Positions 1-29,629 of a DNA stretch of 64,000 nucleotides are shown in pieces. Every line of letters starts with the position of its first letter. The first letter of the stretch is position 1. Location of the stretch: NCBI RefSeq assembly GCF_040954645.1, contig NC_092807.1:79320017-79384016 (forward strand), in the 5' to 3' direction. The translations under genes and the position numbers were made by a program. The notes under the pieces were generated by a model that made no database searches, was not told the origin of the DNA, and worked only from the letters and a program-made list of their open reading frames with translations. The stretch is from Diabrotica undecimpunctata (Eukaryota > Arthropoda > Insecta > Coleoptera > Chrysomelidae).

Positions 1-1290
1 TTCCATTCTCCATCGTTTAGTCCTCTCTTACTCATGGCGTCGTCTACTTCGTTCCTCCAGGATTTTCGGGGTCGTCCTCTTTTCCTCCTTCCTATGGGAA
101 TCCATTCGGTTATTCTTTTTATCCATCTGCTGTCGCTAGCTCTTCTTACATGTCCATACCACTTTAGTCTTTTTTGTTCTATATATGTTAGTATGTCTGT
201 TTCTATTGATGTTCTTTGCTTTATTTCGTCATTATTTCTCCTATCCATTCTTGTTACTCTGCAGAATCTTCGCAGACATTCCAACTCTGTTGCTATTATC
301 TTACTGCTGTTTTTCTTGTTTATGATCCAATTTTCGGCCCCATATGTCATAATACTTCGCACTAATGTTTTATAAATCTGCGTTTTTGTCTTCATATTTA
401 GGTGTCTATCCCACCATACTGAGTTAAGTTGTCGGATTGCCGTTCTTGTTTGTCCTAATCTTTGTGTAATTTCTTCCTCTGTTGTTGCCTTTTTCGTGAT
501 TATAAACCCCAGGTATTTGAATTTATCCTTTCCTTTGATTGTTACGTTGTCATCAATCTGTAGATCTTCTATGTCTTCTTCACTTGTAGATAGGTACTCT
601 GTTTTCGCGAGGTTAATATCTAGGCCAGCCTTGGTATATTCTTCTTGTAGTTTCTTCATCATGTAGCTGAGGTCGTCTTGGTCTTGCAGGAGCCCTTTTG
701 TTGTGGTGAAGTCTCCTATGATTCTTGTTCCCATTTTAATGGACACTTTATTTTCTTTATACAGAGCTTTTGTAGCTTCTATGAGTTCCGTCTGTATTTC
801 TAATTTGTACATTGCCTCCCATAGTTCTGACCTTGGTACAGAGTCATACGCCTTTCTCAGATCCACAAATGCCAAGTGTATATCTCTATTTTTTGCTTTT
901 TTCTTTTCCAACAGTTGTTCCAGTGTGTATATGTGGCCTATGCATGATCTTCCTGCCGTGAAGCCTGCCTGATCCTCCCCGATTTTGCCTTTTATCGCTT
1001 GCTCTATCTTTTCTCGCAGTATCTTCCCATATAATCTTCCTATTGATGATATTACGCTTATTCCTCTGTAGTTTTCGCATCGTTTTCTATCTCCTTTCTT
1101 AAATATAGATGTCATATATGCCGCCGTCCATTCCTTTGGGAGCTGTTCTCCATTTATGGCTTTCTGAAATATCCATTGTATCATCCGGTGTAATTTTTTT
1201 GATCCGTATTTTATAAGCTCAGGTGAGATGCCTCCAGGTCCCGGTGCTTTCTTATTTTTGATTGCTTTTATGGCCGTTCTCATTTGCAAT
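1..1290 (-). pseudogene. Non-LTR retrotransposon reverse transcriptase, decayed C-terminal part
   Basis: Read on the minus strand with a few frame changes, this gives the second half of an endonuclease/reverse-transcriptase type polyprotein. Recognisable blocks in order are KKAPGPGGISPELIK (about 1250), ENYRGISVISSIGRLYGKI (about 1070), EDQAGFTAGRSC, VDLRKAYDSVPR, then TTKGLLQ joined directly to DQDDLSYMMKKL (about 690), followed by KFKYLGFIITKK, TYGAENW and a basic tail GRRKRGRPRKSW near base 45. The stretch that should lie between GLLQ and DQDD, which holds the FADD catalytic motif, is missing. It would have copied element RNA into DNA at a nicked target. It is a dead copy that continues past the left edge or ends just outside it. 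The clade is uncertain (RTE- or Jockey-like). Confidence 0.8.
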
Positions 1291-1334
1291 TGTATATACC
1301 ATTAATGTATAACATATCAGATAGAGACAAATGT

Positions 1335-1441
1335 TTTGGTACAGGATAAGTTTTTATTTCAAAAAATTTTATTCCAAATCCTTTATAAAAGGTATATAAT
1401 AAAATACCTAAACGGGCTATATCACAAATACATTACAGAGG
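1335..1441 (-). mobile_element. Inverted fragment of Penelope-like 5' leader
   Basis: Reverse-complemented, this stretch matches the leader at about 5640-5715 of the Penelope fragment downstream. Both contain a run through tatttgtgatatag, gtattttattatatacc and ttttataaaggatttg. It lies opposite in orientation to that fragment, with the old I-like element between them. Inverted tips of this kind are common at the 5' side of Penelope insertions. Confidence 0.65.
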
Positions 1442-1751
1442 TGTCAACGGGAACTGAACGAGTTAAGTTCTGTGTGTGAAGTGCCGAAATTTTGTCAATA
1501 TTTTCGGATATAAACAAAACTGTTATATCTAAAATTTGAACCATATAGTGGATGGAACACAGTGAATCGTGAAATGATGTTATAACTGACTCAAAGTGAG
1601 TTGTACATTAGTTAATTTACTTAATATTATTTAAAAAACATAACCAACAAAGATACTAGTTCTGTCAATTGTAATAAATATTGTTCTGGGCTACTAGCAT
1701 ATCATAATAGTTGCTAACTTCCTGGTTCATATAGGCAACCAGTTTTACGGC
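1442..1751. other. Unassigned AT-rich stretch before the I-like ORF1
   Basis: No reading frame or repeat was recognised. By position it may hold the 5' UTR of the I-like element that starts coding at 1752, but it does not visibly match the 5' UTR of the intact copy at 47230-47464. Confidence 0.3.
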
Positions 1752-3470
1752 ATGCCGCATTTAAATTTGCCTATAGCAAACACACTCACAAATATTAGCG
1801 ATCAAGCCATTCTCGCTTCTGACTACAGGGGCGAGATAAAATTGAATATAAGTTCTCCAACGGCAAATAACAGTAATACAACTGAAAGTAACAGCCCTCC
1901 AGTTTCATATGTTGCTGCTGCTAGATCTATACCTAAAACTACGTACCCAAAAAAAAAGCAGGCTATAGTGTTTTATATAACTGATAACAATCTTGAATTA
2001 TTTGACTACGTCAAAACAATTGGAAATATTATTGGACCGAAAAACATCAGCTTCGCTTCCAGAATCTCGAACAACCGATTGTGCATTTACCTAAACAATA
2101 TAGAATGTGTGGACCTATTACTAACAAATAATCCTGTTGTTAGCGTAGGAGACGTAGACCATAATATTAGAAGACTAGTTACACCAGCTAAACGTCTAGT
2201 TATATCAAATATATGCCCATCTATTCCACATGAGCTTATAGAGTGAGCACTCAAAGATTATAGCCTACAGATTGCTTTACCCATCTCGTTCCTAAGGGCA
2301 GGAATTCCAGGCGACGAGTATAACCATATTCTTTCCTTTCGTAGACAGGTCTACATAGTCCCACCCAATGATAACTACAAGATCCAAACTTCATTGGTCA
2401 TTCTATTTGAAGGTAATGTACATCACATATTTTTGTTTACCGATAAAATGCTCTGTTTTTTATGCAAACATTCTGGACATGTAGCTAACAATTGCCGAAA
2501 TACAAATCTCCCTTCAGTTTCTACAGAAAATCCATCAACAACTGAAGAAATACTATCCTCACCTGTCCCTGGAATAAAGAGAGCCTTTTCGAATTCAGTA
2601 GATTCCAACGTAATCAACGTGTTAGAAACACAGGAAGAAATTTCACCTGCAATGCCTCTTCCTTATCAAGATACAAACAGAAAACCAACGAAACAAGCTA
2701 GGAAGAAGTTAAAAAAAGATTCGTCTGATAGTTCCAAAATCACGGATGCCTCAAAAGAAGCAATAAAAGACTGTTTTAGTAAGTCATCACACTCTTTTTC
2801 CACTTCTGTAGATAATTTCATAAGCTTTCTTGAAAATAGTTACGGTAGTAGCAATCTATTATCTGAAGCCCAACAGTTTACATATGACATCAAATCATTA
2901 CTCTCTGACATGTATAATATTTATTCTTTTCTAATAGATCTTCTTCTTCTTAAAGTGCCTATCCGTTCCGGACGTTGGCGATCATCACGGCTATCTTCAC
3001 TTTGCTTATTGCAGCGCGGAACAGTTCAGTGGTAGTCGTGTTATAGCACTTTCGCAAATTTTGAAGCCAGGAAATGCGTCTTCTTCCCGGTCCTCTCTTA
3101 CCATTTACTTTCCCTTGGAGAATCAGCTGGAGAAGGCCGTAACGTTCTTGATTTCTCATTACATGACCTAGATATTCCAACTTTTTAGTTTTGACGGTCA
3201 TGAGAATTTCACATTCTTTCCCCATTCTACGCAGGTCCTTCACATTAGTAACTCTGTCAACCCAGGATATACGTAAGATGCGCCTTACAGATAGCCTCTA
3301 ACAGATAGGTCACTAAATACAGATTTACAAGAATATCAAAAAAACTCAAACAAGATTTTCAGTTTAACACAGCAGACTCAGTGAGCATCAATTCCCTGTC
3401 ATCACTGGAACCTCCGGATGAGGAATATCTCTCAGATACCTCCCAACATTCCCAAAAATCCTCTTTTTAA
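1752..3470 (+). pseudogene. I-like element copy 1, ORF1 (gag-like), broken
   Basis: This is the nucleic-acid-binding ORF1 of an I-like non-LTR retrotransposon of the same family as the intact copy at 47465-48808. Shared blocks include SYVAAARS, KKKQAIVFYI, FDYVKTIGNI, SRISNNRLCIYL, IRRLVTPAKRL and SNICPSIPHELIE. A CCHC knuckle CFLCKHSGHVANNC (C-X2-C-X4-H-X4-C) is encoded near 2448-2490. One in-frame TGA stands at 2244-2246; the frame is otherwise open from 1752 to about 2938, where a foreign minus-strand insert begins. The C-terminus resumes near 3295 (SDRSL) and decays to a double stop TAATAA near 3468. Its role was to coat element RNA. It cannot make full-length protein now. Confidence 0.85.
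2939..3293 (-). mobile_element. 5'-truncated non-LTR insert with AAG tail
   Basis: The minus strand encodes the end of an endonuclease/reverse-transcriptase polyprotein: KKLEYLGHVMRN, LLQLILQGKVNGKRG, GRRRISWLQNLR, ELFRAAISK, MIANVRNG. The 3' end of the insert is on the left and finishes in an aagaagaag tail. The insert splits the ORF1 of the surrounding I-like element. Short similar sequences ctaatagat (left) and ctaacagat (right) may be a mutated target duplication. Only about 350 bases survive, as expected for a 5'-truncated copy made by target-primed reverse transcription. Confidence 0.8.
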
Positions 3471-4797
3471 TAAATTTCAATCTAATTCAATGGAATTGTG
3501 ATGGGTTTTACCCTAGACTTCAACACCTTTAAAAGTTAATTCTTGATACTACTGCCGACATAGTATGTTTACAAGAAACGAATTTCAAATCTGACACGCA
3601 AAAGACTTCTAAATGGTTTTGTAAATTTCAGTTTGTAGTATTTATATTCCTCCAAATTATAGTTAATCCGAAGCTGATTTAGTGGACCTCATATACCAAC
3701 TTCCTTCACCTTTCCTTCTTGTTGGAGATTTCAATGCCCACAATACATTGTGGGGTTCTAAAAAAACCTTCGGCCGGGGAAAGACTGTCGAAAATGTATT
3801 AAATATTACCGATACTTGTATGACGAATAATCATTCTAAAACTCATTTTAATATTGCTACTGGTACATTCTTCCAATAGATTTAAGTTTATGCCACCCAA
3901 AAATAAATCCTAACCTCACATGGAAACCAGCTGACTATCTTTATGACAGTAATCATTTTCCTATTTTAATATCTGAAAAATCTGCAAAACATTTCGACTC
4001 CTTTAAAAAATGGAACATTTTCAATGCCAACTGGGATGGCTTTCGATTATATACTGAAAGTAAACTAAATCAGCTGCAGTTATCAGAAGATGCAAATGAA
4101 AATATCGGCGCTTTCAATAACTGTATAATCTCCGCTGCTGAGGCAAATATCGGACAAATAGCAATTTCTTCGTCTCGTAAAACAACACCTTGGTGGAATA
4201 AAAGATGCTCTCTGGCTATACAATGAAGTAAGGCAGCACTAAACAAATACCGTAGAGACAGTAGTAAAGAAAATTTAATTACCTTAAAAAAACTGAGAGC
4301 CAAATCTAAGTATATAATTAAACAAAGCAAAAAAGACTTTTGGAAAGAACACGTCTCATCCATAAATAGTGACGCTCCTTCTAGCAAAATTTGGAAAAAA
4401 ATTAAACACATGACAGGAAAGAAAACTTATTCAAAAATTTCTGCCATACTTACTCAAAACAGCACAGTCACTTGTAGTCAACAAATTGTTAACATCTTGG
4501 GTGAAACTTTTCATAAGAAAGCAACAAATAGACTTGCTTCAAATTGGCAGCTTCCCATGTCTACTAATCTAAACTCCAGTATATCTGATAGCAGAAAATC
4601 CGACCAAATTTCTCTAAATATGCCGTTTACATTACAAGAATTATCAGACACATTGTACTGTTGCAAAAATTCAGCTGCAGGTCCAGATAACATTCTTTTT
4701 ATTTTTATTAAAAATCTTTCAAGGCCTAGCCTAGCTAAACTGCTGGAAATTTACAATTTAGTATGGACCAAAAAATCATTTCCAAATTTGTGGCAAA
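3470..4797 (+). pseudogene. I-like element copy 1, ORF2 (endonuclease and start of RT), decayed
   Basis: ORF2 begins around the IQWNCDG block of the AP-like endonuclease (about 3485) and shows QETNFKS, VGDFNAHNTLWGSKKTFGRG (about 3720-3780), DSNHFPIL, TPWWNKRCSLA and, near 4660, CKNSAAGPDNI of the RT fingers. Several frame changes, stops and an internal loss in the endonuclease make it non-functional. As in the intact copy, no AUG precedes the endonuclease. At about 4797 the frame runs straight into Penelope coding sequence, so the RT catalytic core, RNase H and 3' end are absent. The reading frame 4410-4928 is therefore a chance chimera of two unrelated elements. Confidence 0.85.
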
Positions 4798-5752
4798 ATG
4801 TAACTGCGTTCCGCAGAGACTCTACCACCAAACCCAATTACGTTTCACTTCCATACCAACATGAGAGTCTTTCTGGAGATATTCGAAATTTAATCAAACG
4901 TTCGGTTGAAAATATACGTTTCTTTTAAAGTACCCAATAACTTGGGTCAGTATATATCCAATTTCAAAGACTCTATCGATTACATGAACCGTAGGCGTGT
5001 TTATTATAGTTAAGAACATGTAAATTTAGACAAATGTATAGTTGGTTGCCTATCGATACCTACAAAATTTCATGTACTCCAGTCTATCTACATTAATTTA
5101 TAAAACAAATTTTTTCACTGTTTATCAACATAAATATAGGACAAATTCACATTACAAACTACAACATTGATGATTTATACTGTTATATTATTATAATTTT
5201 AACTTATTCAATTTTAAATAATGCTGGCTTCTGTCATTTTTAGACAACTACCGTAAGTTGCACTGACTGTTTTGTTCCGACATCCATCCTAACATGTCAA
5301 TATTGTCTTTTTTATCAGTTGTTATCAACAGGTCCTCGAAGACACTTTGTCTCAGGACCATGTAACCTATATAGAGCCATACGTTGCCATGTTACCAATT
5401 CCAACGGTAACTTCAACATCCTAATTTGCAATAATATATAATGTAACATATCTATAAATTTATAACATTTAACGGGTTTTCACCCATTTATTTTAGTGGC
5501 TTATAGCATGTATACCTCGTAAGTATTAACCACATTTTGCATAACCTTAGTCAACATTTTCAATTTTACGTTCTTTTTAATTAAAGTGGTTATATACTTT
5601 CAAGTTACACTGATGATGTAATTTACATTCTGAAAACGTTCTATAATATATTTGTGATATAGTTCGTTTGGGTATTTTATTATATACCTTTTATAAAGGA
5701 TTTGAAATAAAAATTCGTGATACATGCTATACAGCGAGCTACAGGAACTTAG
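4798..5752 (+). mobile_element. Penelope-like element, 3' fragment plus leader of a following unit
   Basis: The first 220 bases match the region before the GIY-YIG domain of the Penelope element at 12000-12210, for example RRDSTTKPNY, LPYQHESLSGDIR, IKRSVEN and a damaged YMNRRRVYY. After an untranslated stretch it shares with the 9670-9960 region the run acgggttttcaccca, the CTGATGA...GAAA motif (5610-5635), the leader tattttattatatacc and the block tatacagcgagctacagg. It therefore passes from the 3' end of one unit into the 5' leader of another, a tandem arrangement, and then ends. It is a second Penelope family, clearly diverged from the one at 8.2-14 kb, and it is 5' truncated. Confidence 0.8.
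5610..5640 (+). ncRNA. Hammerhead-like motif in Penelope terminal region
   Basis: CTGATGA is followed by a short self-complementary stretch and then GAAAACG. This is the order of the hammerhead core (CUGANGA, stem II, GAAA). The equivalent stem in the other Penelope copy (9826-9858) has a different sequence but can also pair. One extra base follows the CTGATGA box and no cleavage triplet could be confirmed, so activity is uncertain. Confidence 0.4.
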
Positions 5753-6040
5753 TTTTCTAGTGGATTTTGAAGTTTTTTCTTTTTATTTTATGACTATATC
5801 TGTTTTCCATTACATTAAAACATCAACATAAAAAACAGATATTCTTAAAAATTTATTAATTTCTGTAATTTATAAAATTTGGGGAATCACAGAGGTATAA
5901 TATATTATATAGATTTAAGTCATCACTGCCATTGTGATGGTCTTCACCTGTATGCCTGTATAGGAATCTGTATCCACGAAACTAGGTTCCATGGCTTGCT
6001 TGCTAAAGTAGTTAGGTATTATTGACTGACACGTTATGTA
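5753..6040. other. No gene recognised
   Basis: AT-rich sequence between the Penelope fragment and the small inverted-repeat element. I see no open frame or repeat here. Confidence 0.5.
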
Positions 6041-6489
6041 AAATAAAGTTTTATTTTGAGAATGCAGTCATTAATAGGGCAGGAACCATAATAACAATCA
6101 AGAGCTAGTTATCAACAACAAAAAATATAATAAACATAATCGAGTGTCTTTTTGACATAAATCAAACATCAATATAATAATCAATGTCATAATGAATTTA
6201 TACAAAATTGAATAAAATTAAAATATTGTACTTACATAACTATATAATTTTAATAAGTTAAGTTTTAATGTTTTGTCAATTTAAAAATTTAATGGATTAA
6301 CCTCATGTTGTAAGCTTTTATACTAGTTTTATACAATGTTATTTAATTATAATTTCATTGTATTTACTGATATCATATTTTAGCATATCCTGAAGAAGCA
6401 AATACATTTTGCGAAAGCTTGATTAAAGAACAAAGAGTTTCACTTTCCTGCCCTATTAATGACTGCATCCTCAAAATAAAACTTTATTT
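6041..6489. mobile_element. MITE-like element with 45-bp terminal inverted repeats
   Basis: The left arm 6041-6085 and right arm 6445-6489 are inverted copies with about one mismatch. Each contains AAATAAAGTTTTATTTTGAG and then ATGCAGTCATTAATAGGG. A TA dinucleotide flanks both ends, as expected for a mariner-type target duplication. The 449-base interior has no coding frame. Near the right arm (about 6390-6418) is CTGAAGA, a short stem, then GAAAGC, again in hammerhead-like order. Its autonomous partner is not evident in the window. Confidence 0.65.
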
Positions 6490-21214: not shown

Positions 21215-22543
21215 TGAACTGAGCTTATTAGTCTAATCTATTAACTTTATTTATTATAAAATATTCTAACACTTAATTTATTAAAGTCTTTATATAATTT
21301 ATATATACAATATTCTTACACTTATCACAACTACTTTAATTGATATTATTTATTTACAATATTTATTTCTGCGTTACAATTCGAAACTTGACCCGATTAT
21401 ATTTTCAGACTCCTCACACAATGAAAGTTCTGCTATATATATCAAACAGCCGTTGTTCGGAAATCCCTTCGAAGCCCCCGGATGTTGACCTGTTCATCCG
21501 TTATACCACCTATTCACCTTCCGATTGCGGATGATACGCTGTAGTTCTTGTTTTCTTCATGCGTAGTCTATCACATATTCCTTATAATAGATCGCTTTCG
21601 AAGTTCCTTCGTTGGTCACTATGGATCTCCACAAGCACTCTAAATCAGCTAATATATTCTTGGATCAACTTATCTGCAAAGGTGGCGGCCTTCTGCTCCG
21701 GAGTGCGTAAATCTCGACACACTTAGTGAAGTTATCCATTACTACCAACATCTACTTGCCTCCATTTTCACTTTCTGGAAATGGCCCCGCGATGTCCAAA
21801 GCTATTCTTTCAAACGGGCTTCCAACATTATATTGTCTCATAGGAGCTCTCCTTTTTCGGTGAGGTCCATTACTCGTAGCACAAATAGTACATTTCTTAC
21901 ACCAGTCCTTTACGTCGTCGGAACTGTTCATCCGATAAAACCGTTCCCGAAGTCGCTGAATGGTTTTCTTTACACCGAAATGCCCTCCTGATGGACTGTC
22001 GTGTAACTGACGAAGTACTTCGGCTATTCTGCTCTTTGGGATCACCAACTATTTTCTCGTCTTTAAACCGTCACCATTTTCCAGTACTCGTTTGAGCAAG
22101 CTATCTTCCATGATAAATGAGCCTCACTGGGCCCAATACGTCTTAACTACTGAGCATAGGTTTGATATTTCTTGCCAAGGTAGTCGATGGTTTTCCTCTT
22201 TTCATTTTCGAATTTTTTATATAACTGTATCTCTCTCTTGTTCTTCCCTTATCTTAGTAGGCGTGCAATCGTCATTGACCATCCTTGTTCTTAGCACTGC
22301 TGCTTCCTTGGATTCCGTTTTGTTGCAGTGGGAACACTCTGTTGGGCATGGCCTTCAGGAAAGAGAATCAGCGTTTCTGTGGCTAACTCCGGCCCGGTGC
22401 TCAATCTTGAAATCGTATCCTTGAGTTGTCTCGAATGAAAGTGAACGCCAGACCCGTTTCTAGCGGGTCGGAAAATATACTAGAACAAAAGTGAGCATAA
22501 CAAAATGTTTACAGGTTAAATATGATTAATATTTATCGTAATA
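21215..22543 (-). repeat. Gypsy-1 3' LTR carrying an internal pol duplication
   Basis: Bases 21215-21492 and 22421-22543 match the 5' LTR. The section between is not LTR but a copy of pol. Compared with the 5' LTR this copy keeps about 130 extra bases (21280-21440), so the intact LTR was probably near 400 bases. Confidence 0.8.
21495..22424 (-). repeat. Duplicated RNase H-integrase segment inside the LTR
   Basis: Nearly identical to 23735-24660 in the body of the same element, including the integrase HHCC block PSGGHFGVKKTIQRLRERFY (minus strand, about 21960-22010). Its junctions are short shared sequences (ttcatcc on one side, cttga on the other), which suggests template switching or recombination at microhomology. 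Confidence 0.85.
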
Positions 22544-23348
22544 TTGCCCCCCTCTTAAAAGATGGTTCCTCCTGGAACCTTGTCGGGGCTGGAACTGGAA
22601 CGGTATGCTGGTATCGGCAACTGGACCCTCTTTTACAACTTCCAGTTGTATAAAAATGACAAGGGATGGTTTTCTCTCCACACAAATAATTATGCGGATT
22701 GCAACAGACTAACACCTAGACTTCGGTATCTTTAAACATCTTCATCATACTTCGGATTACCCTCCAATTTAAATGGCGGCACTGTAACTTTGGCATGGCT
22801 AACTTTTGCACGTCGGACTCTAGTATGTGCTCTCTCAATTGAAGTAAGGATTCCCATACATCTTGGTAGGTAGGTTGGTTACGGGCAGTGTCTTTTTTTA
22901 CCAGGTAGAAAAGGTAGCGTGATGCATCTTGGAGTTTCAAGGCTTTCCCGGGAGCTGGCACTTAGTATTGAAGTTCTGCAACTCGACCGAACTTCCTTCG
23001 AAAGACGGATGCTAACCCTGGTGCGTCTTTTATACTGGCCGGGATGGTAAGGACCAGTGAGTGGTCATCGGGAGGCGCGAGTGGATCTTGCTTTTCTTCA
23101 GTCCTAACACCATGTCGTTCCTTACCGGTACCTCCATAGGCCCCTATGAATTCCTGAAACGTGAGGTCAGACAAATCTTGGACTTGGTTTACTTCCACTT
23201 CTTCATCTACGTCGTGGTCACCTTCGAAAGAAGCCAGCCGGTTATGGTGTACTATCATCGGCTTTCCCCTCGGTATCTTGCTTATTTGGTAGATGACATC
23301 GTTGGTCTTCTCCATAATGAGGTATGGACCTTCCCAAAACTGCTGCAA
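22533..23348 (-). pseudogene. Gypsy-1 integrase C-terminus, macro domain and CCCH zinc finger
   Basis: One minus-strand frame, broken by a TAA (22962-22964) and a TAG (22716-22718). The first part (23348-23175) is an integrase tail with FWEGPYLIMEKTNDVIYQI and MIVHHNRLASF, a GPY/F-type module. From about 23066 to 22690 it aligns with OARD1/TARG1-type macro domains: DHSLVLTI, GLASVFRRKFGRVAEL, SRYLFYLVKKD, QPTYQDVWESLLQL, VQKLAMPKLQC, LNWRVIRSM and VLVCC. Such domains bind ADP-ribose or remove it from proteins. The Gly-Leu-Asp that supplies the catalytic Asp in OARD1 is replaced here by RHLN, and the GAGIA loop reads APGLA. It ends in CHFYTTGSCKRGSSCRYQH, a CCCH finger (C-X7-C-X5-C-X3-H), then the polypurine tract. 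The frame context implies an ancestral C-terminal extension of Pol. Confidence 0.75.
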
Positions 23349-26300
23349 CTTGGGAAAACAACCTTTTCACTTTTTGTAATTATGGAGCCAGACTTTGTCG
23401 TTATTCTTAAAGCACCTGTTTCGGCTTGTGTATCGTACCGTTTCTTCATTCGGTCGCTTGCGATCTGAAGATGGGAATGGACCAACTCGTTGTCATTGTC
23501 CATTCTTCTTCGTAATTCGATCACATAATATTCACCTCCTACATCTTCTCTAGGTCTATACCCAAATTCTAGATCACAAGGTAATCACATCTCGCGTCCG
23601 AATAGGACTCTCGCTAGTGTCTGGCCTGTTGATTCGTTAATGGCAGATCTGTAGGTCATTGCAAAGAACGAAAGATATTGGTCTTAGTCTCGCTGATGAT
23701 CGGACATCTTTGTCAAATACTTGCCAACTGTCCTATTCATCCATTATACCATACCTTCCGATTGCGGATGATACGTTATAGTTCTTGTTTTCTTCCTGCG
23801 TAGTCTATCACATATTCCTTGGAATAGATCGCTTTAGAAGTTCCTTCGTTGGTCACTATGGATCTCCACAAGCACTCTAAATCAGCTGATATATTCTTGG
23901 ATCAACTTATCTGCAAAGGTGGCGGCCTTCTGCTCCGGAGTGCGTAAATCTCGACACACTTAGTGAAGTTATCCATTACTACCAACATCTACTTGCCTCC
24001 ATTTTCACTTTCTGGAAATGGCCCCGCGATGTCCAAAGCTATTCTTTCAAACGGGCTTCCAACATTATATTGTCTCATAGGAGCTCTCTTTTTCGGCGAG
24101 GTCCGTTACTCGTAGCACAAATAGTACATTTCTTACACCAGTCCTTTACGTCGTCCGAACTGTTCATCCAATAAAACCGTTCCCGAAGTCGCTGAATGGT
24201 TTTCCTTACACCGAAATGCCCTCCTGATGGACTGTCGTGTAACTGACGCAGTACTTCGGCTATTCTGCTCTTTGGGATCACCAACTGTTTTCTCGTCTTT
24301 AAACCGCCACCATTTTCCAGTACTCGTTTGAGCAAGCTATCTTCCATGATAAATGAGTCTCACTGGGTCCAATATGTCTTAACTACTGAGCATAGGTTTG
24401 ATATTGCTTGCCAAGGTGGTCGACGGTTTTCCTATTTCCATTTTCGAATTTTTTGTATAACTGGATCTCTCTCTTGTTCTTCCCTTATGTTAGTAGGCGT
24501 CCAATCGTCGTTGACCATCGTTGTTCTTAGCACTGCTGCTTTCTTGGATTCCGTTTTGTTGCAGGGGGAACACACTGCTGGGCATGGCCTTCAGGAAAGA
24601 GAATCTGCGTTTCTGTGGCTAACTCCGGCCCGATGCTCAATTTTGAAATCGTATTCTTGAAGTCGTTCAATCCATCTGGTTATCTGAACCTCTGGATTCT
24701 TAAACTGCATTAAATACTTAAGGGCGGCATGGTCGGTTCGGATTAAAAACTTTCTTCCATAGAGGTATTGATAGAAGTGCTCTACTGATTTCACTACTGC
24801 TAGAAGTTCTCTTCTCGTGACGTAATAATTCCGCTCAGGGTTTGAAAGAACTTTACTAAAATATCCAAGGACTCGTTCTTGTCCTCCTTGAGATAGCACT
24901 CCTCCTATTTCCACATTACTTGCATCTGTATCTAAGATGAACTCTCCTTCTGGCAGTGGATATCCTAAAATTGGTTCTGTGATTAAATGCTTTTTTAAGG
25001 TGTCAAAGGCATTTTGGCAGTCTGTATCCCAACGGTAATCTTTTGCTTTCTCTGTAAGTCGCGTTAATGGCTTAGCTATATCTGCAAACCTCTTAATAAA
25101 CCTCCGGTAGTAAGTATATAGTCAAAGAAAACTTCTTACTTGATGTTTGTCAGTTGGTTCTGGCCATTCCTTAATGGAATCGATTTTTCCCTTATTCACG
25201 GCCATTCCTTTACTAACTATATGACCTAGATAATTGAGTTTAGCTTGAAAAAGCTGACACTTCTTGGGGTTTAACATCAATTGGGCAGCTTTAATGTCTC
25301 CCATAAGACGATTATGTCATCTACATAAACCAGGCATGTTTTCTAAGATAATCCTCTTAACACATTTTCTATAAGCCTCTCAAATGTGGCAGAAGCATTA
25401 TAGAGTCCAAATGGCATAACGCTGAATTGCCACAATCCAGATCCTGCGGTGAAGGCTGCCTTCTCATTATCTACTGGATCCATTTCTACCTGCCAGTATG
25501 CAGACTTTAAATCCAAAGTAGAAATCAATTTACTTCCAGCCAATGTTTCCAATGTGTCGTCGATCCGAGGCATAGGATAACTATTTTTCTTGGTAAAGTT
25601 GTTTATCAAACTGTAATCCACATAGAACCTCATCGTTCCGTCTTTTTTATTAACCAGAACCACCGGAAAAACCCATGGGCTCGTAGAAGGTTCTATCACC
25701 CCATCTTTCTTTATTTCCTGAACAATCGTTTCAGCTTGCTCTCTTTTCGCCTGTGGTAATCGTCAAGCTGTTTGACGAATTGGCTGAGCATTACCAGTAT
25801 CAATTTTATGCTTAACAACGGTTGTTCTTCCCGTCTTTCCTCCTTTAGGTACGAAAATATCACGATACAGCCGAAGAAATTCCCTCAATTTCCTTTTCTC
25901 CATCTGATGTAGAGACTGTCCCGCAACTGCAACCATTTGGTCGAATTTGTCGTTCTAATTATCAGATGTTATTGCCTGACGGATTATGGATGTCACAGGT
26001 ACACAAGTTCCTACTTTTGTCTTTTTCTTGATGGTCACGGTTCCAAGGCTCCATCATAACAGGTCTCCCTTGTGGATGAAGAAATAACTCATCGTTGCTA
26101 ACTTTGATTACCTTATTCTTAAAATCCAATTGGAATCCATGCATATTCATTACATCTATTTCTAATAAAGATCATCCTTTCCGATGTCAGCAACTATAAC
26201 AGTATGGACAAACTTTTCTTCTCCAATTCCCAATTATACCCGGATTTCTCTTTGACTGTTGGCATTTTCACCTGTAGCGGTCCGAAGTCGCAACCTCGTT

Positions 26301-26489: not shown

Positions 26490-27610
26490 AAGGCCGACCC
26501 GTTCTAGTTTTCCTGATAGTGAGTTTCTTGATTTGCGTCGTACCTAGGGTGCTTACATGAACTTCATACTTATCCTATTTCGCCACAATTCCAGTATCTT
26601 ATGGTCTTCGTTTTCTTGAATGTAATACTTTTCATCATATTAACGAGCTGGTCAAGTTTATCTTTATCTTCTTTCTCTTTTACAGTCGTAACTTTACTGT
26701 ACCTGCCAGAGGCCTGCGTAGCTGACTCGTATTCGAGGGCGGCGGATAAGACATTAACCAGCGCGCAGCGTCGTGTGACGAGCTAATCACAGTGTTTTCT
26801 GCATTTCATGATCACGAAGACCATCAATAAATGTTTGAACGGCCAATTTTTTCTCATGTCTTCGGGAGCTGTTGGATAAGCATATCGTACTAATCTGGCA
26901 ATATCTACGACATATCCTTGAAGAGCCTCATCTTTCTTCTGTCTTCGATTTTTAAGCTGCGAATGATATACATGCTCCAAATATTCGTGGCCATATCGCA
27001 TATTTAACCTCCTCTTCAGTTGTACGAAATCATCGGTCTCGTCTACGGCTATGGTCTGAAGAACATCTAAGGCATCTTCTCGAAGAGCGATAGTCAAGTT
27101 TCCAGCCTTTTCTTTTTCAGACCATCCATTCGCTCCTGCAGCTGATTTGAACTGTTTCATCTAGTTGTTCCATGACGATTTTCCGTCGAAAGTTGGGACT
27201 TTAACATGAGCAGAACCCTCACTTTTTTCAACTTTCGGCCGTGTTTTCAACTTACATTTCGTCTCTTCTTCTTTTGTCTCTACTGTAATTGGATTGTTTT
27301 CTCTCTCTGCTGTCTCTGTTTCCTCCATCTTCCTTTCCATCTCTTTCATGTTTTCTTCGAAGGCCAACTTTTCGGCAGCAACTTGGTTTTTTAACGAAGA
27401 TATTTTATCGTCGAGGGCAGACATCTCAAAAGTGACTTTAGAGATTTCCGAAGAGATGTTAGCAGAAACTTTGCTTTCCAGAGAAGAAATCTCGTTAAAA
27501 ACTTTGTTTTCTAAAGAAGCGATGTCGCCGGAAACTTTGTTCTCTAATGATGCGATGTCGCCAGAAACTTTATTCTCTAATTTCGAAATCGACGAGATCA
27601 CAGCAGCATG
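26490..27610 (-). pseudogene. Gypsy-1 gag
   Basis: The N-terminal part (27601-27161) is a coiled coil made of near-repeats ENKVSGDIASL, followed by a charged KMEETETAEREN stretch and VKVPTFDGKSSWNN. A stop TAG interrupts the frame, which resumes at 27160 with MKQFKSAAGANGWSEKEK, ALREDALDVLQTI, FVQLKRRLNMRYG and LKNRRQKKDEALQGYVVDIA, the Gag capsid-like block. A damaged CCHC knuckle (WNCGEIG) is near 26590. Gag would form the particle that packages element RNA. Frame changes follow near 26800. Confidence 0.8.
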
Positions 27611-27780
27611 TTTATCTTCAAATATATAAGTTTTCGTTCTTTAGTCGTTGGACTAAATTATCTTTTTTTCCGGTAGAAGCTAATTCTCTGTCCTCGAGAT
27701 GTCTTCTTAAATTCGTAACTGTGAGCTCATGAGTCGTAGTCATTTTTATAATTTGATTTCTATTTCACTCTGACACCAAT

Positions 27781-28047
27781 TGAACTGAGTTTATTACTCT
27801 ATTTATTCATTTTATTTATTATAAAATATTCTAACACTTAGTTTATTAAAGTCTTTATTTCTTTATCAAACAGCCGTTGTTTGGGAATCCCTTCGAAGCC
27901 CCGGATGTTGACCTGTGTTGACCCTTGAATTGTCTCGAATGAAAGGGAACATCAGACCGGTTTCTAGCGGGTCGGAGAATATACTAGAACAAAAGTGAGA
28001 ATAACAATATGTTTACAAGTTAAATATGACTTATATTTATCGTAACA
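27781..28047 (-). repeat. Gypsy-1 5' LTR (internally deleted)
   Basis: It begins tgaactgag and ends cgtaaca beside the target duplication atac. Compared with the 3' LTR it has lost about 130 bases (joined at tctttat...atcaaac). It would hold the promoter of the element. Confidence 0.85.
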
Positions 28048-28749: not shown

Positions 28750-29629
28750 ATGATTTTAATGGCTTCCAAAAGCATTAAAATTATTCAATGTAATATTCTT
28801 TCGCTAAATGTAAACAAATATTCTTGAAATCAATTACTTTTTGAAGAACATTTTGACATAGCTCTTTCATCAGAAACTTGGTCCAAACCATCTGATACTG
28901 TTTACTTCAATAATTTTATTGTAGTTATTAAAAGTAGAAGTAAGGGATATGGAGGAGTTGCCATAATTTTAGGAAATAACATTATTTATGAGCCCATTTC
29001 ATTCGTTAACAATTTCAATCCTAATCTCTAAGTTTGTGGTGTAAATATTAATATTGACCAAAAAATTTATTATATTCTAAGTGTGTACCGTTGCCCAAAA
29101 TTTAGAGTAACAATTCAAAATTACGTTAGTCTTATTTCTCAAATTAACAATGATTGTATTATTACCGGAGATTTTAATGCTCACCATGGATTATGGGGAT
29201 CCAATTTATGTTCCGTCGATGGTAATATACTAGTAGAAGTCTTAGATGTATTTCCTAATCTAGTTGTTGTAAATGACGGATCGGCTACTAGAGCTACTCC
29301 TCCAGGACATATCAAATCGGTTGTAGATCTTACTATTATAAGCTCTAGTTTATGTTCAGCCTTTGACTGGATCGTTCTTCCAGATACCTCTGGATCCGAT
29401 ATTGGGAAAAATTGGGAAATATTTAGAGATTCTGTAGGGAGCATTTTCAGATACGAATCAAATACAAAAAAACCAATGAAATTATATTTTTCTTATTAGA
29501 TTCTATTACTACTGTAGTCAATAAATCTTTTAAAATTATCAAAGCCTTAGTTAAAACTTTCAAAACGCCACCATGGTGGGATCATGAATGTCTCACTGTT
29601 TCGAATGCGAGGAAAAATTCTTTTAAAAT
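28750..29629 (+). pseudogene. I-like element A, ORF2 endonuclease
   Basis: The AP-like endonuclease that nicks the target DNA. Blocks are KIIQCNILSLNVNKY, DIALSSETWSK, GYGGVAIILGNNIIYEP, VYRCPKFRVT, IITGDFNAHHGLWGSN (29158-29205), SVVDLTIISSSL and PPWWDHECLTVSNARKNSF. The first part has stops near 28826 and 29030. The catalytic E of SSETW and D/N of GDFNAH remain. The frame is cut at 29629 by the LTR-like insertion and resumes in phase at 33521. Confidence 0.8.

Follow-up and report, generated by a model that had tools for sequence, protein, structure and literature searches.

A predicted OARD1/TARG1-type macrodomain and a CCCH zinc finger behind the integrase of beetle Ty3/Gypsy retrotransposons

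The stretch of the Diabrotica undecimpunctata genome analyzed here (64,000 nucleotides of contig NC_092807.1, positions 79,320,017 to 79,384,016; referred to as the window, whose own numbering is used for its features) contains on its minus strand an old, decayed copy of a Gypsy retrotransposon. One end of the copy is a piece of the 5′ long terminal repeat (LTR; 28045-27923) and the other is a 3′ LTR starting at 22543; its Pfam matches follow the order gag, reverse transcriptase (RT), RNase H, integrase zinc finger, and integrase C-terminal domain. Directly behind the integrase, Pol of this copy ends, as judged by homology, in a macrodomain of the OARD1/TARG1 type (22704-23123) and a CCCH zinc finger (22605-22661). 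A first-pass annotation of the same DNA had already placed a segment of this kind downstream of the integrase C terminus, in frame apart from two stops; the frame 23066-22533 does read so, with the stops at 22964-22962 and 22718-22716, inside the macrodomain. The position at the end of Pol stands as well, but the macrodomain starts near 23123, about 57 nucleotides before the proposed boundary, because the β1 strand with its conserved Asp (KQD in place of KGD) also aligns.

The identity of the macrodomain was established by comparing the translated pieces of the window with 177,635 distinct PDB sequences. The 81-residue piece between the two stops matches five OARD1/TARG1 sequences (best E value, 9.7e-10), and its other matches at E ≤10 are just two luciferase-like chains (E value of 1.3); the 34-residue piece preceding it has no match among the PDB sequences at E ≤10. 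The same region in an intact copy of the window family (family 1), taken as the whole domain from the β1 strand, matches OARD1 with an E value of 6.4e-23, which bears out the similarity seen in the first pass. The corresponding E values are 1.2e-17 for the relative P0001 and 8.3e-29 for the macrodomain of a second element family in this genome (family 2). The intact family 1 copy, family 2, and the tree described below all indicate that the homology to OARD1/TARG1 spans the full length of the domain. The next group of solved structures matched by the profile after OARD1 is 5m31 (E value of 4.4e-13), which we take to be DarG. The Pfam Macro model matches neither the window pieces nor other sequences of the window family, so that a Pfam scan alone would have overlooked the domain. 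The finger has the previously suggested spacing, C-X7-C-X5-C-X3-H, and matches Pfam zf-CCCH with an E value of 3.9e-7; its three Cys residues and the His are present in 29, 30, 29, and 29, respectively, of 30 family 1 loci.

The other features of the element are likewise on the minus strand. The 5′ LTR piece (27923-28045) is directly repeated over 123 nucleotides, with 91% identity (11 of 123 sites differ), in the first part of the 3′ LTR (22419-22543). The gag region (26573-27640) contains a match to Pfam Retrotrans_gag at 26786-27160, whose E value of 1.7e-4 is under the curated cutoff. The RT (25125-25762) is split into two open pieces, the first matching RVT_1 with an E value of 7.6e-17 and the second, at 0.0072, falling under the cutoff. 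It is followed by the RNase H domain (24594-25121; RT_RNaseH, E value of 4.8e-33), the zinc-binding H2C2 domain of the integrase (24078-24359; E value of 3.1e-22), and the integrase C-terminal domain (23232-23330; Integrase_p58_C, E value of 1e-12), which shares an open piece with the start of the macrodomain. The acidic linker between these two (23124-23231) contains, in translation, the stretch FQEFIGAYGGTGK; F, FM, Y, and K from this linker reappear in the consensus line of 43 element relatives. In comparison with L031, an intact relative, DNA identity is 87% across 27759-26071, which covers the gag region, and 90.6% across 26038-22529. A polypurine tract (22544-22556) does follow the CCCH finger, as the first-pass annotation had it, but the Pol frame continues through the tract as codons and into the 3′ LTR, where it stops at 22535-22533; likewise, the Pol stop of L031 ends at the 11th base of its 3′ LTR. 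A near-identical tract is present in seven of eight fetched family 1 copies, the seven that yielded an LTR pair. The 3′ LTR of the window copy (21440-22543) is interrupted by a 0.95-kb Pol fragment from another copy of the same family (21486-22434), which also shows up in the repeats D1 and D2 and is 91.8% identical to positions 4258-5201 of L031; behind it lies a further LTR piece (21440-21493; 54 nucleotides, 94% identical to the 5′ LTR region). Beside the element, at 29032-29496, there is an endonuclease piece of a non-LTR retrotransposon (Exo_endo_phos_2, E value of 2.2e-17).

A search of the genome (1.74 Gb) with the window-family query gave 4550 candidate places, of which the best 150 were scored; all 150 matched, with 80 to 99% identity. 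Being the best matches, these copies form a sample biased toward intact ones. No stop is found inside the match in 148 of the 150, and many of them sit in open frames of 1400 to 1840 residues, so the open copies that the earlier annotation had proposed to look for do exist. LTR pairs starting with TGTTACG are present in seven of the eight fetched family 1 stretches, a 300-nucleotide LTR repeat is 100% identical in all six copies submitted to a repeat search, and a 4-bp flanking repeat was seen by eye at L031, L034, and L036. The arrangement of the gag and pol frames varies between copies: in L031, gag (865-2175) and Pol (2136-6404) overlap in different frames, and in L034, gag-pol is one continuous frame (925-6432; 1835 residues). 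The LTRs, the short target duplication, and the protease-RT-RNase H-integrase order (Pfam matches in P0001) are those of the Ty3/Gypsy group. Assignment to the chromoviruses was ruled out, as the Pfam matches in the window pieces and in the element-type proteins include no chromodomain; assignment to the env-bearing Gypsy elements of the errantivirus type was ruled out by the extension of L031 Pol into the 3′ LTR.

The same genome was searched with an OARD1-like query, which gave 4734 candidate places; the best 150 were scored, all of them matched, and 30 loci were read. Family 2 accounts for 29 of the 30, with frames of up to 1414 residues among these 30, and in most of the loci read the same layout is legible through the CCCH finger. 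The best match of this search, L039, is by all signs in its sequence a cellular gene. Its frame of 760 residues has no Pol signature and is similar to P0064 of Aromia moschata, which has a second, weaker macro match downstream of the first one; a Pfam search of L039 found no domain.

Protein searches yielded 1 match from 443 candidates, 9 from 290, and 1293 from 3935, with the best 120 of the 1293 examined. The 43 proteins treated here as element type were recognized by an integrase C-terminal signature, a CCCH signature, or close grouping; 11 of them have neither signature and were assigned by the tree or by close similarity alone. Among the matches listed, they come from Aromia, Molorchus, Exocentrus, Gonioctena, Leptinotarsa, Callosobruchus, Acanthoscelides, Diabrotica virgifera, Brassicogethes, Aquatica, Pyrocoelia, and Holotrichia, as well as from the leafhopper Macrosteles. 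At E ≤0.01, Pfam finds Integrase_p58_C in 21 of the 43, Macro in 25, and zf-CCCH_3 in 19. The integrase C-terminal and CCCH signatures occur together in 17 of the 43, including those from Aromia, Molorchus, Exocentrus, Leptinotarsa, and Gonioctena, so that the layout with integrase C terminus, macrodomain, and CCCH finger recurs in proteins of long-horned and leaf beetles. The proteins of Brassicogethes, Aquatica, Holotrichia, Macrosteles, and D. virgifera were scored by the script as being without both signatures; the Brassicogethes protein nonetheless matches zf-CCCH (E value of 0.0021), with its first Cys replaced by Ser. A single protein of 1339 residues, P0001, has the macro region and the CCCH finger together with protease, RT, RNase H, and integrase; its identity is 82% over Pol and 66% over the macro part. 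The D. virgifera matches show 75 to 84% identity. Three D. virgifera models named “ADP-ribose glycohydrolase OARD1-like” (P0003, P0004, and P0009) resemble fragments of the window-family element, and another model, named tachykinin-like peptides receptor 86C, opens with a piece of the element macrodomain. A search of IMG/VR viral contigs with the window piece found no relative; a profile search of the same database found four viral contigs (L069 to L072), two of them of 79 and 137 kb, with OARD1-like macrodomains of 34 to 35% identity.

In a tree of 62 macrodomains built by the more careful method, all 36 element sequences fall on one side of a branch with support of 99/97 and adjoin, with support of 95/79, P0064 from Aromia and L039 from this genome. 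Before tree building, 17 near-identical proteins and sequences shorter than 95 residues were removed, and P0040, whose match is split, was left out along with the second domain of P0064 and that of P0012; the cellular proteins were thinned to 28 and then to 25, the second tree lacking P0008 (a long branch), P0011, and P0093. A quick tree made beforehand from 63 sequences agrees, with support values of 98 and 94 and P0064 as the sole neighbor. The trees were rooted at the midpoint for drawing only. A Trp residue and a final Cys are common to the elements and the beetle gene and occur in 1% and 3%, respectively, of the other OARD1-type sequences, which supports the link between the two. The grouping of the element sequences in one clade beside the beetle cellular gene suggests that a beetle-centered Ty3/Gypsy clade probably took its macrodomain from a beetle cellular gene of the OARD1/TARG1 type in a single capture. 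The element-type leafhopper protein P0060 nests among the beetle elements, which hints at horizontal transfer.

Sequence comparisons at several levels indicate that the macrodomain is under purifying selection, which is weaker than that on the enzyme domains. Families 1 and 2 share 43% identity in the 146 codons compared of the macro part, with proportions of nonsynonymous (pN) and synonymous (pS) differences of 0.38 and 0.86, the latter being saturated; the integrase C-terminal domain is 61% identical over 67 codons. Within family 1, pN/pS summed over seven copies, two of which have a Pol divided between frame pieces, is 0.12 for protease and linker, 0.10 for RT, 0.04 for RNase H, 0.05 for the integrase core, and 0.09 for the integrase C-terminal domain. 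Variants were further counted in 30 family 1 loci, using the linker and the half of the macrodomain outside the search query to lessen the bias from the choice of copies. Those shared by at least two copies comprise 9 nonsynonymous and 10 synonymous changes, against a neutral ratio of 2.76:1 (P = 0.014), and singletons (49:21) are consistent with neutrality. The first-pass annotation had suggested looking for purifying selection on this segment, and both the comparison between the families and the shared variants point to it. In the family 2 macrodomain, the corresponding counts are 17:17 for shared variants and 46:27 for singletons. Pairwise pN/pS relative to L031 ranges from 0.11 to 0.34 in copies that were picked by protein similarity and have at most one stop, a maintained frame, and synonymous differences; in broken copies, it reaches 0.63. 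The CCCH finger of the 30 family 1 loci shows too few variants for a verdict (shared, 2:2; singletons, 12:2); its pattern is retained, and it may be under constraint within this genome.

The active-site residues are numbered here as Asp20, Lys84, and Asp125, which we take to be the numbering of human TARG1. In the portion consulted of the review PMC7050489, residue 125 is given as Glu. Asp20 is present in all 35 element proteins that are readable at this position, Lys84 in 42 of 43, and Asp125 in 35 of 42; with one protein per near-identical group, the counts are 25/25, 29/30, and 22/29. The dyad of Lys84 and Asp125, from which an active TARG1-type hydrolase is predicted here, is retained by 35 of the 42 readable proteins and, with near-identical groups counted once, by 22 of 29. 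Its preservation in relatives from other beetles suggests that the element group was probably an eraser of ADP-ribose originally. At the MGAG loop, 31 of 41 readable element sequences have SRG and none of the 41 has GAG; in cellular sequences, GxG is kept in 77 of 84, 51 of these having MGAGI. In the window clade (support of 100/99), Asp125 has been lost through a deletion of two residues, and family 1 retains Lys84 in 30 of 30 loci without the full dyad. Family 2 shows the opposite loss, all 29 loci having Arg in place of Lys84 and 28 of the 29 keeping Asp125, and it, too, is without the full dyad. In another element relative, P0029, both residues of the dyad are changed (Lys84 to Arg and Asp125 to Gly). 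The first-pass annotation had correctly described the catalytic Asp and the GAG loop of the window copy as changed (APGLA), but its suggestion that this copy has simply decayed does not hold, since all 30 family 1 loci lack the GLD loop, and the Gly-Leu-Asp whose presence in intact copies it proposed to check is missing there as well. The GAG loop is absent from every legible locus among these 30, where the sequence is APGLA or a close variant such as GPGLA, ATGLA, or APRLA (L006 is unreadable and L007 only partly readable). Changes common to the family 1 loci rule out copy-specific decay as their cause.

The combined conclusion, that the domain is a macrodomain that was captured from a cellular gene and retained, has by our estimate a probability of about 0.93. 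A number of observations weigh against a retained domain that acts on ADP-ribose. The changed MGAG loop could weaken the binding of ADP-ribose, and the losses of Asp125 in the window family and of Lys84 in family 2 speak against a required hydrolase in these families. In the seven family 1 copies, pN/pS of the macrodomain is 0.18, above those of RT (0.10) and the integrase core (0.05), and the CCCH-bearing tail, at 0.70, is weakly constrained. The within-family test is modest, with a Fisher P value of 0.1 for shared variants versus singletons in the half outside the query. The half inside the query has counts of 9:11 for shared variants and 15:18 for singletons, so that the singletons are also depleted of nonsynonymous changes, and that half is biased by how the copies were chosen.

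Some role of the element macrodomain related to ADP-ribose is somewhat more likely than not; the two uses suggested in the first-pass annotation, against a host defense based on ADP-ribosylation and in the element's own cycle, are both candidates. A more specific mechanism, in which an integrase-linked eraser later became a reader, is put forward tentatively, at somewhat less than even odds. Host PARPs or related transferases would mark the ends of the element's complementary DNA (cDNA), single-stranded cDNA, or the preintegration complex with ADP-ribose; the TARG1 domain linked to the integrase would strip these marks from the element nucleoprotein and so allow integration to proceed, and the CCCH finger would keep the protein on element RNA or single-stranded DNA. 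In the window family and family 2, which are without the full dyad, the domain would instead have the part of a reader, or of a tether, for ADP-ribosylated DNA or chromatin, like the chromodomains behind other Gypsy integrases. According to the part of PMC8501950 consulted, TARG1 takes ADP-ribose off thymidine in DNA and, in vitro, off DNA ends, and its K84A variant does not rescue. TARG1 acts through an intermediate at Lys84 that is trapped if residue 125 is altered (PMC7050489, in part). Since TARG1 acts on ADP-ribosylated DNA, a copy linked to the integrase would be well placed to clear the element cDNA. It is a rather unlikely extension of this scheme that retrotransposons make use of ADP-ribose in their own cycle and that a cDNA-cleaning TARG1 domain, twice among the elements of this genome, became a reader by losing opposite halves of the dyad and would now steer integration to ADP-ribosylated DNA or chromatin, the form without Asp125 being a possible covalent trap.

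The domain could instead serve in counter-defense, removing or hiding host ADP-ribosylation aimed at the element, as some RNA-virus macrodomains do. The intact dyad of 35 of the 42 readable proteins would fit this, as would the reversal of host ADP-ribosylation by the SARS-CoV-2 macrodomain (PMC8332738, in part) and the presence of open reading frames for macro domain proteins, or CNPase, in endogenous retroviruses of fish (PMC4977317, in part). That both families of this genome have lost the dyad would be odd for an eraser. Insects, to our knowledge, possess few PARPs and are without the antiviral set of vertebrates, which also counts against counter-defense, and we consider this explanation rather unlikely. 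It is doubtful, too, that the domain is a purely structural module, that is, a folded spacer or a protein-protein module that stabilizes the integrase or particles without contacting ADP-ribose and is kept for its shape. Such a module could have the altered loop and dyad seen in the window clade and still be under selection, but the conservation of Asp20 (35/35) and Lys84 (42/43) is hard to explain by shape alone, and Asp125 is kept in 35 of 42 proteins. A useless piece of a host gene carried along by transduction or recombination would account for the two stops of the window copy; it is rejected as very improbable in view of the 148 of 150 scored copies (the best matching ones) without a stop in the matched part, the 43% identity that the two families retain despite saturation of their synonymous sites, and the same layout in other beetles. 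Chance resemblance without a true macrodomain, to which the missing Pfam Macro match of the window family might have pointed, is dismissed outright because OARD1 is matched with E values of 1e-9 to 1e-29 and intermediate sequences do score with that model.

The element macrodomain resembles OARD1/TARG1 (C6orf130, a hydrolase of the ALC1-like class) in its full-length match, in Asp20, in Lys84 of the YLxTK motif, and mostly in Asp125 of GLD. It differs in being fused to Gypsy Pol, in the MGAG loop, which is mostly MSRG, or APG in the window family, in a β1 strand that reads GVTTEE or alike, and in the missing Asp125 of the window family and the Arg for Lys84 of family 2. The beetle cellular gene of the P0064/L039 type is the sister of the element macrodomains and has the same rare Trp and final Cys, but it has a GSG loop and the full dyad, and no Pol or CCCH signature was seen in it. 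The DarG-type macrodomain belongs to a bacterial antitoxin without a Pol fusion. RNA-virus macrodomains, such as that of coronavirus Nsp3, are also carried by mobile genomes and are of the MacroD type, whereas the beetle domain matches the TARG1 type and is carried by a retrotransposon. Chromoviruses, too, have an additional domain at the integrase C terminus (PMC3605345, in part); there it is a chromodomain, in contrast to the macrodomain and CCCH finger of the beetle elements.

A 2009 article by Basta et al., whose title reportedly refers to new retroviruses with cellular genes, is said to be the source for macro open reading frames in fish retroviruses. In the part consulted of PMC4977317, where that article is cited, some epsilon-like endogenous retroviruses of fish have extra open reading frames for CNPase or macro domain proteins. 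These are LTR retroelements with a macro domain as well, but they are vertebrate elements with additional frames, whereas the beetle Gypsy domain is a Pol fusion behind the integrase. LTR retroelements with a macro domain are therefore no novelty in themselves, and the remark in the first-pass annotation that it knew of no described Gypsy group with this layout needs that qualification. It otherwise agrees with our search of open-access full texts, which, among the papers listed, found no description of a Gypsy or insect retroelement with a macrodomain, and hence no insect Gypsy clade with a TARG1-type macrodomain fused to Pol; one paper that it turned up concerns prophages, another names MACROD2 only, and the consulted portion of the main text of PMC6431247 contains no macro domain or ADP-ribose term. 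With both fish retroviruses and beetle Gypsy elements having such domains, LTR elements seem to have acquired them more than once.

That these elements carry a captured macrodomain and a CCCH finger at the end of Pol suggests that ADP-ribose matters in their spread; the domain, behind the integrase, is under selection in large and partly recent families. Two questions can now be put to the test, namely, if the cDNA or integration complexes of retroelements are targets of ADP-ribosylation and if a macrodomain can do the work of a chromodomain. The captured domain also accounts for the name “ADP-ribose glycohydrolase OARD1-like” given to D. virgifera proteins that resemble fragments of the element.

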